Source: Clostridia bacterium (GTDB lineage: Bacteria > Bacillota > Clostridia > Oscillospirales > Butyricicoccaceae). Taken from it: a DNA stretch of 64,000 bases. This document shows, piece by piece, positions 14,389 to 19,353 of the stretch. The notes beneath the pieces were generated by a model. The model was not told the DNA's origin and did no database searches. It worked only from the letters and a program-made list of their open reading frames with translations. The stretch spans positions 1 through 64,000 of the forward strand of contig JAJPXP010000043.1 of NCBI GenBank assembly GCA_021205365.1. The letters are read 5' to 3'. The position numbers and the translations under genes were made by a program. Position 1 is the stretch's first letter. Each line of letters begins with the position of its first letter.

Positions 14389-16875
14389 TTATTCAAATCC
14401 CCGGATTCGCTCTACGATGGAACCTTTTCTCTGCATACTATGATATGCAGCCAGAGGAATCACGGCACACAACAAAGCAATTAGTAATGCTGCGGCTGCA
14501 ATTGGCAGAATCGGTACAACAAACGGCACATCCCGATAGTTCATCGACTGATACAGCACATAGGTGACACCCAAGCCTATCGTCAGTACAACGCCCAGCG
14601 ATGCACCTGCATACAGCAGTCCCTCGCGGATGAGCAGCCACCTGACCTGTTTTCCTGTCATACCAATACTCTCCATCACAGAAAGCTCAACCTGCCTGCT
14701 CTGGATATTGCCCACAGAAGCGTTCAGATAATTCATCATGCCGATGAATGCAAGCACAAACGCAATACCAACGCCAATGCCCATCATATTCCCCTGCGCC
14801 TGCTTCACTTCTTCCAGTGCCTCAAGCTTGGACTCATGGTTAAAGTCCTCGTGATATGGACTGGCGTCAATCATATGCAGGATATCTCGCTCTGTCGCTG
14901 CATCGTACTCCTCCTGATATTTCACACGGACCTTCGACATATAAGGATTCTCGACGATCCCCTTCACGAAGCTGTCACTCACGATCATAGTCGGCGTCGT
15001 TCCCAGCATATTAGCATAATAGGTGTCTGCCGTTCCGCCTTGGATCGTCATCTGAAATACCTGATCCTTCTGTCCATCCAAATAAAATGATATCGGTTTG
15101 CCGATCATCTTTTCTTTGTCCAACTCGAGCCAATCCATAAATAGAATACACGTATTTCCCGCAAGAAAGTTTGCTTCATCTATCGGCTGTTCCAGCGTTG
15201 CATTCAGGCATTCAAATTCCTGCTTATCAATACCGACAAGGAATGAGCAATACTTTTCCGGATGCTGCTGGTAATCCTCTTGGTCGTAGTCGTCCTCCAT
15301 CCACATATCATAAAATTCCCGCATCCAGTAATCCGCAAAGTCGGGTTCCCACGGTACAACGATTTGCGCATTGACAATCGGGTGCACTTCACTAATCCCT
15401 TGATTCTGCCGTAATTCTTTTAAAAAGCTGTCGTCAATCAGAGGTTTCCATTTGTCTTTTGTTTCCATCTGCATCGTATCATTGCTAATAATCATATCTC
15501 CATCCATATAATCAGAAACAATGGTTCGCGGGCCTTGGCTCTGCACGAGCGTCACCATGCACAGGAAAAATGACAAGCAGATACCGAGCGCAGCAACAAC
15601 GATCACCGTCTTTTTCTTGTCTCTTCCCATCTGCTCACGTGCCATCCGCCAGAGAAGACTTCCGTTTCCTGTTTTTCGTGAAAGCCTCTTCCTTGCTTTC
15701 GACCGATAGCCCAGCGCTTCAATCGGTGTGACTGCGGTTGCCATTTTTGCCGGCTTCCTGCTTCCCACATAGATGGTCAGCACAGCAATCAGAAGGGTTA
15801 AAAGGAAAATAACCGGATGAAAGCTAATGTGGATATCATTTTCGCGGATACCAAGGGTTTTGACAACAGTTGGAATCAAGCCAAATGAAGTTACAACACC
15901 GACAAGTAAGCCAATCGCAATTCCAACTGCCCCAATCAACAGCATCTGTTTCTGTACCAGCCGATATACCTGCTTCTCCGTCATACCTATCGTTTGCAGC
16001 AAACCATAATACCGCACATTGCCGGAAACAGACAGATAGAGAATATTGTAAATCAGTAGATAAGCACTCACACAGATGACGAAAATCAGGCCAAGCAATC
16101 CCAATAAGATCTGTACGGAGTTTGCAACCTCTGACGTCAGCAAAAACCGCTGCTTTTTGCCGAGCTGTAAGCTCTGCTCCAAAGCATCCAGAGTTTTTTG
16201 TGTGACAATCCGAGCGTTCAATTTCAGATATAAAAATCCACGTCCAGGATCTTCCAGCGTAAAGCCGGACTGGTCAAAAAATGACTTGGAAACATAAAAA
16301 ACCTTTTTGTCTCCGTAGCCGTCCCATATGCCGGAAATCGTAAATTCCTTTGTATGATCGCCGTTGTTGTCATAATACGTAACGGTGAACGAATCACCGA
16401 CATCCAGTCCCTCAAAACCACAGTCCTTTAAGGCCTCCTGCGTTGTCATGACCTCGTTGTCCTTCTTCGGATAGCTGCCCTTTACCTCGTTCATTGCAGG
16501 CTCCTTGATGGTATTCCACATCGTCTCATCCGACCATATGAACGTCGAGTGAAGTGTACTGTCATATTCTGTACTGACTGCCCATGCAGCAAAGCCCTCT
16601 GTACCAATCTGCGCAATATTCGGGTTTTGCTCGCAGGTTTTTCTCTGTTCTTCCGTAAATCCACCATACAGAAATGCGTCAAAATCTCCGCCATTTAAGC
16701 GGATATTCTGCACCCGCTGCATTTGCATCCATGTCCCGCCGACGGTCAGAATGGTAAACAGCATAAACGCGGACAGCGCAATCGCCAGAATCATGATGCC
16801 GTTTCTGCGTTTGTTGCTGACAAGCGAACGCTTTGCCATGCGCGTAATGACAGCGCCATTATTATTTTTCAGCAT
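14389..16875 (-). CDS. ABC transporter permease, FtsX/MacB-like fold
   Basis: ~828 aa with TM segments near N-terminus, centre and C-terminus (LLQTIGMTEKQVYRLVQKQMLLIG; VMESIGMTGKQVRWLLIREGLLY). Confidence 0.87.
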   Translation of the reverse strand: MLKNNNGAVITRMAKRSLVSNKRRNGIMILAIALSAFMLFTILTVGGTWMQMQRVQNIRLNGGDFDAFLYGGFTEEQRKTCEQNPNIAQIGTEGFAAWAVSTEYDSTLHSTFIWSDETMWNTIKEPAMNEVKGSYPKKDNEVMTTQEALKDCGFEGLDVGDSFTVTYYDNNGDHTKEFTISGIWDGYGDKKVFYVSKSFFDQSGFTLEDPGRGFLYLKLNARIVTQKTLDALEQSLQLGKKQRFLLTSEVANSVQILLGLLGLIFVICVSAYLLIYNILYLSVSGNVRYYGLLQTIGMTEKQVYRLVQKQMLLIGAVGIAIGLLVGVVTSFGLIPTVVKTLGIRENDIHISFHPVIFLLTLLIAVLTIYVGSRKPAKMATAVTPIEALGYRSKARKRLSRKTGNGSLLWRMAREQMGRDKKKTVIVVAALGICLSFFLCMVTLVQSQGPRTIVSDYMDGDMIISNDTMQMETKDKWKPLIDDSFLKELRQNQGISEVHPIVNAQIVVPWEPDFADYWMREFYDMWMEDDYDQEDYQQHPEKYCSFLVGIDKQEFECLNATLEQPIDEANFLAGNTCILFMDWLELDKEKMIGKPISFYLDGQKDQVFQMTIQGGTADTYYANMLGTTPTMIVSDSFVKGIVENPYMSKVRVKYQEEYDAATERDILHMIDASPYHEDFNHESKLEALEEVKQAQGNMMGIGVGIAFVLAFIGMMNYLNASVGNIQSRQVELSVMESIGMTGKQVRWLLIREGLLYAGASLGVVLTIGLGVTYVLYQSMNYRDVPFVVPILPIAAAALLIALLCAVIPLAAYHSMQRKGSIVERIRGFE

Positions 16876-17551
16876 AACCGGCACCATCCTTTACAATTTT
16901 ACCATCTTCAATATGGACAATCCGGTCTGCCAGCTGCGCAATATCGTGGTCATGAGTAATCAGGATAATGGTCTGCTGGAACTTTTTTGCCGCCAGCTTC
17001 AACAGTCCCATAACATCATGGCTGGTTGCCGTATCCAGATTTCCCGTTGGCTCATCCGCAAGGATAATCGCAGGCTTGGAAGCGATTGCCCGTGCAATGG
17101 CAACCCGCTGCTGCTGGCCACCCGATAAAGTATGCGGCAATGCTTCACGCTTTTCTTCCAGCTTCAGAAGATGCAGGATTTCATCCACAAATTCCCGGTC
17201 AATATGACGTCCATCCAGTTCAATTGGCAATACAATGTTTTCATATACATTCAAATCGGGTACAAGATTGTAATTTTGAAAAATAAACCCGACTTTACGG
17301 CGGCGGAAAATTGCCAGCTGCTCCTTGTTCAATTCTGCCAAATTCCTTCCATCAATCCAAACAGAGCCGTCTGTCGGTATATCCAGTCCACCCAGCAGAT
17401 GCAGAAGCGTACTCTTTCCACTGCCTGACTTTCCGATAATCGAAATAAATTCCTGTTCCTGTACAACAAAATCCACACCGTCCAGTGCTTTCACTGTATT
17501 TTCCCCGAGTTTATAATATTTCTTTAGATTTCGTGTTTTCACAGCTTCCAT
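16862..17551 (-). CDS. ABC transporter ATP-binding protein (MacB/LolD/BceA type)
   Basis: Walker [10 protein letters not shown], signature LSGGQQQR, Walker [13 protein letters not shown]. Confidence 0.92.
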
Positions 17552-17619
17552 TGAGAATGCCTCCTTTTTTGTTTCTGAGGTAAGCATACCGTATAAAAAT
17601 CACAAACTGCTCTCAATTT

Positions 17620-18561
17620 TTAATTATCACAATAATGTGATGATTCATTCGGCAGATACACCCGGAAGTCTGATCCCTGTCCCAGAGCAGAGCGAACCTC
17701 AGCATATCCTCCCTGAAGCTCTGCAATCCGTCTGGTCAAGTACAAGCCAATGCCGATTCCCTCCAAATCATGCACCTCTGGTTCCCGGTAAAAGCGCGTA
17801 AAAATTTCAGCCTGACGTTCCTGGGCGATACCTTTGCCTGTATCCTGCACACTAATTTTTGTGAACATCTCCTGTCTGGTCACAGCAATGTGGATGTCCC
17901 CGCCTGGTTCTGTATATTTCACTGCATTATCCAGCAAATTGAAAACCGCTTCTTCCGTCCATTTGGGATCATGGAAAAGCCTGATTTGTGTATCGCAGTC
18001 CACCGATAACCGAAGCCGTTTTTTCTCCGCCTTCGGTACAATCGCAGCGACGGCATGTCCCAATGTATCAACCAGCCTTGCGTTCTGCTGCTGAATCTGC
18101 ATACTGCCGGTTTCCAGCCGTGACATTTTTATCATGCTCTGCAACAGGAAATCCAGTTTTTCTGTCTGGCGTTCCATATTGGTCAAAAACTCTCTTTCCC
18201 GGGCAGATTCCGATTCTGACTGCAAAATTTCCAGATAAACCTTGATATTGGCGATCGGTGTTTTTGTCTGATGGGAAATATCTGAAATCAGCTCTTTGAT
18301 CTGCTGCTTTTCCCGCAATACCTCTGTATTTTTCTGTTTCCAAACATGGGCAACACGCTGCAGTTTTTCACTTACTTTGCCCCAGAGTGTGTCCTCTATT
18401 TCTTCTAAGCCTGTGATCTCCTTTTCCGATAAAATACAATCCAGAAATTGTTCCAGCCGATCTGCAAATAAATATACCTCATGCTGCAGCCGCCACAGCT
18501 TCCATGCAAACAGGGCTGCTATCAAAACAGCACCTATTGTTATGATTATCCATCCAGCCAT
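17620..18561 (-). CDS. Sensor histidine kinase
   Basis: Single N-terminal TM; ISDISHQTKTPI H-box; N-box FNLLDNAVKYTEPGG; DTGKGI, GIGIGLYLTRRI. Confidence 0.9.
   Translation of the reverse strand: MAGWIIITIGAVLIAALFAWKLWRLQHEVYLFADRLEQFLDCILSEKEITGLEEIEDTLWGKVSEKLQRVAHVWKQKNTEVLREKQQIKELISDISHQTKTPIANIKVYLEILQSESESAREREFLTNMERQTEKLDFLLQSMIKMSRLETGSMQIQQQNARLVDTLGHAVAAIVPKAEKKRLRLSVDCDTQIRLFHDPKWTEEAVFNLLDNAVKYTEPGGDIHIAVTRQEMFTKISVQDTGKGIAQERQAEIFTRFYREPEVHDLEGIGIGLYLTRRIAELQGGYAEVRSALGQGSDFRVYLPNESSHYCDN
17626..17641. promoter_or_regulatory. Candidate response-regulator operator upstream of ABC genes
   Basis: ATCACA-ATAA-TGTGAT. Confidence 0.55.
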
Positions 18562-19217
18562 TGATATCCCATCCCATACACATTAGAAATATATTTGTGG
18601 TTTTCATCTTCGATTTTCTTGCGCAGTCGGTTAACATTGACAGCCAGTGCATGTTTATCAACAAACTGTCCGCCGCTGTCCCACAACCGTTCCAACAGAA
18701 TATCATAAGTCAATAGCTGTCCGGTATGAGAGCTTAGCTCATGCAGCAGGCGAAGCTCTGTCGGCGTGAAAGGCTGCTCCCGCCCATTTACAGACGCTTT
18801 TGCCTGATCGAAATCGATATATAAAAAGCCATCGTCAAAAACCCGGTTGTTTGATTCCATATTCCGCTTTAAAATCACAGCGATTCGTTTCAAAAGGATT
18901 TTCATAGAGAAGGGCTTGGTCACATAATCCTCTGCCCCTAGCTCATAGCCCTTTAAAATATCCTCTTCCAGATCTCTTGCTGTGAGAAAAAGCACGGATG
19001 CTTTCTTCTTATCCTTCATCCACGCACAAAAGGCAAACCCTTCCCCATCCGGCAAATTGACGTCCAGCAGCACCAATTCAGGTTTTTCTGCCAGATAGAC
19101 CTCTTTTGCTTCCTGCAGGCAATGTGCAGAACAAACAGAATAGTTTTCTTTCTCCAAAGCATACGCAATACCACGATGCAGCTCCCAATTATCTTCTATT
19201 ATCAATATTTTTTGCAT
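18546..19217 (-). CDS. OmpR/PhoB family response regulator
   Basis: Receiver (LLDVNLPDGEGFAFC, TARD, KPFSMKILLKR) plus winged-helix C-terminus. Confidence 0.92.
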   Translation of the reverse strand: MQKILIIEDNWELHRGIAYALEKENYSVCSAHCLQEAKEVYLAEKPELVLLDVNLPDGEGFAFCAWMKDKKKASVLFLTARDLEEDILKGYELGAEDYVTKPFSMKILLKRIAVILKRNMESNNRVFDDGFLYIDFDQAKASVNGREQPFTPTELRLLHELSSHTGQLLTYDILLERLWDSGGQFVDKHALAVNVNRLRKKIEDENHKYISNVYGMGYQWLDG

Positions 19218-19281
19218 GGTCCTTCCCTTTCCTTTGTACTTATATCATATTGTAGCATACAACGGCAGCATATGTGAAACT

Positions 19282-19297
19282 ATCACAGGATTGTGAT
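19282..19297. promoter_or_regulatory. Candidate response-regulator operator upstream of regulator gene
   Basis: ATCACA-GGAT-TGTGAT, same arms as 17626-17641. Confidence 0.55.
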
Positions 19298-19324: not shown

Positions 19325-19353
19325 TTGAACCTGTTTTTTCTTTGCAGTACAAT
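19325..19353 (+). promoter_or_regulatory. Sigma-A-type promoter of aminotransferase gene
   Basis: TTGAAC - 17 nt - TACAAT, ~30 nt upstream of the ATG at 19384. Confidence 0.6.

Follow-up and report, generated by a model that had tools for sequence, protein, structure and literature searches.

A palindromic operator shared by two promoters suggests an autoregulated two-component–ABC transporter module, similar but not identical to Bce-like systems, in a Clostridia genome

Bce-like modules are defined by a histidine kinase with two contiguous transmembrane (TM) segments joined by a linker of fewer than 11 residues, and by a permease with exactly 10 TM segments, of which TM7 and TM8 flank a single large loop (PMC3023708). 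The box of Bce regulators has the consensus TNACA-N4-TGTAA (PMC9020739). In a second system, the GraR box AAGTGACA-N4-TGTCATTT is embedded in the 3′ end of graS, ahead of vraFG, and induction is lost when the box is mutated (PMC3128592). YbbP, in turn, is a fusion of two half-transporters that has two extracellular domains and a pair of linking TM helices (PMC5985334); a YbbAP-TesA complex has been reported, in an abstract that names no two-component partner (PMC12646458).

The window analyzed here, a stretch of 64,000 nt from a Clostridia bacterium (Butyricicoccaceae; GenBank assembly GCA_021205365.1, contig JAJPXP010000043.1), carries on its minus strand four adjacent genes in the order response regulator, histidine kinase, ABC ATPase, and permease, as expected of a Bce-like module and in the same order as in four orthologous loci. 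The first gene encodes an OmpR/PhoB-type regulator of 223 aa (18546-19217, minus strand), assigned to this family by the presence of both a receiver and a winged-helix domain (Pfam Response_reg, PF00072, and Trans_reg_C, PF00486, above cut-off). It overlaps by 16 bp with the gene of a 313-aa sensor histidine kinase (17620-18561, minus strand; Pfam HisKA and HATPase_c). After a gap of 68 bp follow a 229-aa ABC transporter ATPase of the MacB/LolD type (16862-17551, minus strand; Pfam ABC_tran, with NCBIfam LolD/MacB-like matches below cut-offs) and, overlapping its gene by 26 bp, a fused double MacB/FtsX-type permease of 832 aa (14389-16887, minus strand). The source genome holds at least five regulator-kinase-ABC sets. 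Elsewhere it contains a further copy of the permease gene in a degraded state (L038:1186-2919, G000:C37), which is 76-78% identical over two pieces, lacks the middle part, has an internal stop, and is adjoined by no regulator, kinase or ATPase genes.

Two exact copies of the palindrome ATCACA-N4-TGTGAT accompany these genes, with the coordinates and arms that an earlier note on this DNA had assigned to them. Operator 1 (19282-19297, minus strand; ATCACAGGATTGTGAT, minus-strand form ATCACAATCCTGTGAT) is located upstream of the response-regulator promoter. Operator 2 (17626-17641, minus strand; ATCACAATAATGTGAT, minus-strand entry ATCACATTATTGTGAT) is the distal site of the ABC promoter; it overlaps the last codons of the kinase gene, 75-90 bp upstream of the ATPase ATG at 17551, again as described before. 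The genome scan proposed in the same note gave no excess of random matches: the two exact sites of the window are also the only ones in the whole genome of 2,804,925 bases, compared to a chance expectation, based on base composition, of 0.20 per genome and 0.0046 per window. When up to one mismatch was allowed, seven sites were found in the genome versus three for a reversed control. The five non-exact sites have no evident promoter context, and were thus rejected as further regulon members in this genome; at least four of them fall within long ORFs, and no listed gene lies downstream of the fifth (L007).

A consensus scan predicted a response-regulator promoter at 19249-19278 (minus strand, 10/12 matches), composed of the −35 box TTCACA (19278-19273), an 18-nt spacer, and the extended −10 box TGC-TACAAT (19254-19249), with a TG before the −10. 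The hexamer reads TACAAT in four of five orthologues (here and below, five includes the window) and TAAAAT in L073. For the ABC genes, the predicted internal promoter has the −10 box TATGCT (17583-17588, minus strand), which is kept as TATGCT or TATCCT in the five orthologues, and no −35 box. In the place of the latter stands a head-to-tail direct repeat with an 11-bp period (17600-17615, minus strand), TGAGA (17615-17611)-N6-TGTGA (17604-17600), whose halves start 27 and 16 bp before the −10 box in the window as well as in the orthologues; both halves are TGTGA in L073. Head-to-tail half-sites are the typical arrangement for OmpR-family regulators (PMC6222199) and, judged by its sequence, the ABC promoter appears to offer just such a pair, about 11 bp apart. 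This proximal repeat is absent from the regulator promoter of the window, which has a −35 and an extended −10 box, so that regulation there could differ in sign or strength. On the plus strand, a plausible promoter for a divergent PatB-type C-S lyase gene, TTGAAC-N17-TACAAT, was seen at 19325-19353; operator 1 is close enough to it that the regulator might affect the PatB-type gene in this genome.

Conservation was analyzed in the modules of four other genomes (L071, L072, L073, and L074), namely two congeners (G005 and G006), a Frisingicoccus-labelled MAG, and a Lachnospiraceae MAG, which harbor the same four genes with permeases 79%, 77%, 81%, and 60% identical to that of the window, respectively. 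All four carry the box at both promoters, with a single arm mismatch in only one of the eight copies. At the ABC promoter, the distance from the box centre to the −10 box is 45 bp in all five modules. For the regulator promoter, three modules have distances of 45, 46, and 45 bp, whereas the window and its 60% relative have 35 bp, one helical turn less; here, the upstream flanks cannot be aligned between orthologues except for the box and the −10. In L072 (G005), the kinase gene stops before the ABC box, which therefore lies outside the kinase coding sequence, indicating that coding constraint is not the reason for its conservation. Exact copies of the palindrome were also found outside the module in the congeners, at G006:C164:31550-31565 (L102) and G005:C115:673-688 (L103), one of them at a contig end just before TTGACA and the other ∼290 bp before a sodium-solute symporter gene; these are possibly due to chance. 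One or two more matches to a looser pattern occur outside the module in G005 and G006. The extra matches in G005, G006, and G010 were not accepted as regulon members, their number being about that allowed by chance.

More distant cousins of the module in two other genera (L105 and L106), with regulators 44% and kinases 44-45% identical to those of the window, keep the box as GTCACA-N4-TGTGAC before the ABC gene. In L106, the ABC promoter has the direct repeat at identical spacing, and TGTGA-N6-TGTGA is found at the same distances at the regulator promoters of both cousins. The distance between distal site and −10 box is 71 bp in the cousins versus 45 bp in the window, a difference that is not a whole number of helical turns. 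The recognition helix differs between window and cousins although the TGTGA half-site is common to both, which is compatible with shared as well as with separate specificity. In L105, the kinase gene is followed by two transporter units, each preceded by its own GTCACA-N4-TGTGAC. The extra unit, between the kinase and ATPase genes (L105:850-3760), encodes a small exported protein, two membrane proteins, and another ABC ATPase, and carries its own copy of the composite operator. In still more distant four-gene modules (L079, L083, L085, L086, L089, and L090), the internal promoter ahead of the ABC gene is conserved but contains a different motif, and the regulator gene shows no recognized box; their kinase-ATPase intergenic regions share a strongly conserved block, AATCTTTCAAAA..TGTTAGATT, then GAAAGAATGTGGAAAGATT, before the ABC gene. 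Thus, the internal promoter seems to be the more general feature, and this particular box is confined to one branch, as a clade-specific layout. The main proposal of the earlier note, namely that the two-component system and its transporter are connected by one regulator box and that there is an internal second promoter, is supported by the restriction of the box to the module, its presence at both promoters in five genomes, its phasing with the promoters, and its retention before the ABC gene in two other genera.

At the protein level, a single TM segment (residues 1-19) was found in the kinase, and no extracellular domain; this bears out the architecture previously read from the sequence, and the four orthologous kinases have one TM segment as well. 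Two TM segments with a short linker are present in the kinases of the cousins L104-L108. The permease was correctly recognized before as a MacB/FtsX protein (Pfam FtsX and MacB_PCD), but its TM segments, formerly placed in three positions, had to be revised: hydropathy and an AlphaFold2 model agree on a total of eight TM segments, grouped in four places as 1 + 3 + 1 + 3. Two large extracellular domains of ∼200 and ∼250 residues follow TM1 and TM5, the second of them preceded by a single TM segment (427-445), so that the check for a BceB-type topology, which had also been suggested, came out against the BceB pattern. The model used was built from a 37-sequence alignment (pLDDT 80, pTM 0.70); a model from five close permeases was discarded (pLDDT 38). 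A profile of the 37 permease relatives matched YtrF (2e-30) and MacB (3e-26) ahead of BceB (4e-12). In a comparison with the PDB, the predicted structure had its best fold match in E. coli YbbP (E 5e-23, TM-score up to 0.54, at 13% identity in the alignment), with BceB at 4e-12. A corresponding ranking of the regulator against the PDB was dropped for classification, as it did not separate BceR-like from other OmpR-type regulators.

Could the locus nevertheless be a true Bce-like antimicrobial-peptide detoxification module of the BceRS-BceAB family, with a standard kinase and permease? Gene order, box type, and the location of the box, ahead of the ABC gene and at the 3′ end of the kinase gene, would all match, and the two-TM, short-linker kinases of the cousins point in the same direction. 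We regard this as unlikely, since the topology of both membrane proteins in the window contradicts it, BceS ranks low among the kinase matches, and the permease is far closer to YtrF and MacB by profile, and to YbbP by predicted fold, than to BceB.

A further question is whether the box belongs to the adjacent regulator at all. With operator 1 located between divergent promoters, the box could be the operator of another transcription factor that controls, for example, the PatB-type gene. However, a second copy is found at the ABC promoter, far from patB, the box is present in G005 (L072/L039) and G006 (L074/L040) although no PatB-type gene adjoins the module there, and it accompanies the regulator-kinase-ABC genes into other genera, which makes an unrelated factor decidedly improbable. 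To a role of the palindromes as RNA hairpins (attenuator or terminator), or to their being chance repeats, we give very little credence. The inverted arms could pair in a transcript, and operator 1 does form a hairpin in the predicted fold; yet operator 1 lies upstream of its own −10 box, neither operator has a terminator-like site or an Rfam match, the ABC-region transcript folds no better than shuffled sequences (z = −0.69), and the arms keep their sequence rather than covary. Chance repeats are opposed by the 0.2 exact sites expected per genome.

We therefore consider it likely, from sequence evidence, that these genes form a self-contained, autoregulated two-component–ABC transporter module, whose OmpR-type regulator would bind both promoters and induce the transporter from the internal one. 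In such an autoregulated module, the kinase would phosphorylate the regulator, which would then recognize TGTGA half-sites and bind inverted TCACA-N4-TGTGA pairs at two places, ahead of its own promoter and ahead of the internal promoter located between the kinase and ATPase genes. The regulator may in addition occupy the head-to-tail TGAGA-N6-TGTGA of the latter promoter; as this repeat stands at the place of the −35 box, transcription of the transporter would depend on an activator. The regulator promoter, with its own −35 and extended −10 boxes, would allow a basal level of expression, which the regulator would then modulate, most likely as an activator. As no part of the kinase is exposed outside the membrane, the probable source of its signal is either the membrane or the transporter, by analogy to BceS, which receives its signal from BceAB, and the inducer may be an envelope-active compound.

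It is conceivable, and here we are more tentative, that eight-TM, two-domain YbbP-like permeases acting as sensors for one-TM kinases represent a separate class of sensory transporter modules in these Clostridia. If so, BceB-type permeases with their one large loop would not be the only transporters through which sensing takes place. Modules built in this way, with regulator, kinase, and ABC genes, are frequent in these genomes. The mapped operator pair, together with a promoter geometry common to several genera, provides a ready reporter for what such modules sense, which could also be used to probe whether transporter-based sensing extends beyond BceB-type permeases.

Among the known systems, BceRS-BceAB and PsdRS-PsdAB share with the present module the four-gene order, a kinase without an extracellular domain, a TNACA-N4-TGT-type box before the ABC gene, and a type VII transporter. 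In contrast to these systems, the module described here combines a kinase with one TM segment (versus two) and a permease with eight TM segments (versus ten) and two extracellular domains (versus one), and its regulator gene carries a box, too. A two-site model has reportedly been published for BceR promoters; it is not used as evidence here. The fit to TNACA-N4-TGTAA boxes put forward in the earlier note is approximate: the resemblance to BceR and GraR boxes is real, and the left arm and the spacer length agree with this consensus, whereas the right arm, TGTGA, is one base off. GraXRS-VraFG of Staphylococcus aureus is similar in having a palindromic box with a 4-nt spacer in the 3′ end of the kinase gene that drives the transporter operon (PMC3128592). 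However, graXRS lacks autoregulation, and its promoter carries no box; GraR controls a wide regulon, whereas the box described here is confined to the module. With YbbAP of E. coli, the transporter has in common two fused MacB-type halves in one chain, two extracellular domains, and a separate ATPase, in line with the result of the fold comparison; the additional pair of linking TM helices in YbbP (10 TM segments in all) is missing from the present permease, which has eight. No described system of this build was found in the literature searched. The module is thus, as previously suspected, related to the Bce modules but distinct from them in its one-TM kinase and YbbP-like two-domain permease: its control layout is Bce/Gra-like, yet it falls outside the Bce-like definition in the topology of both kinase and permease, and should not be filed as Bce-like.
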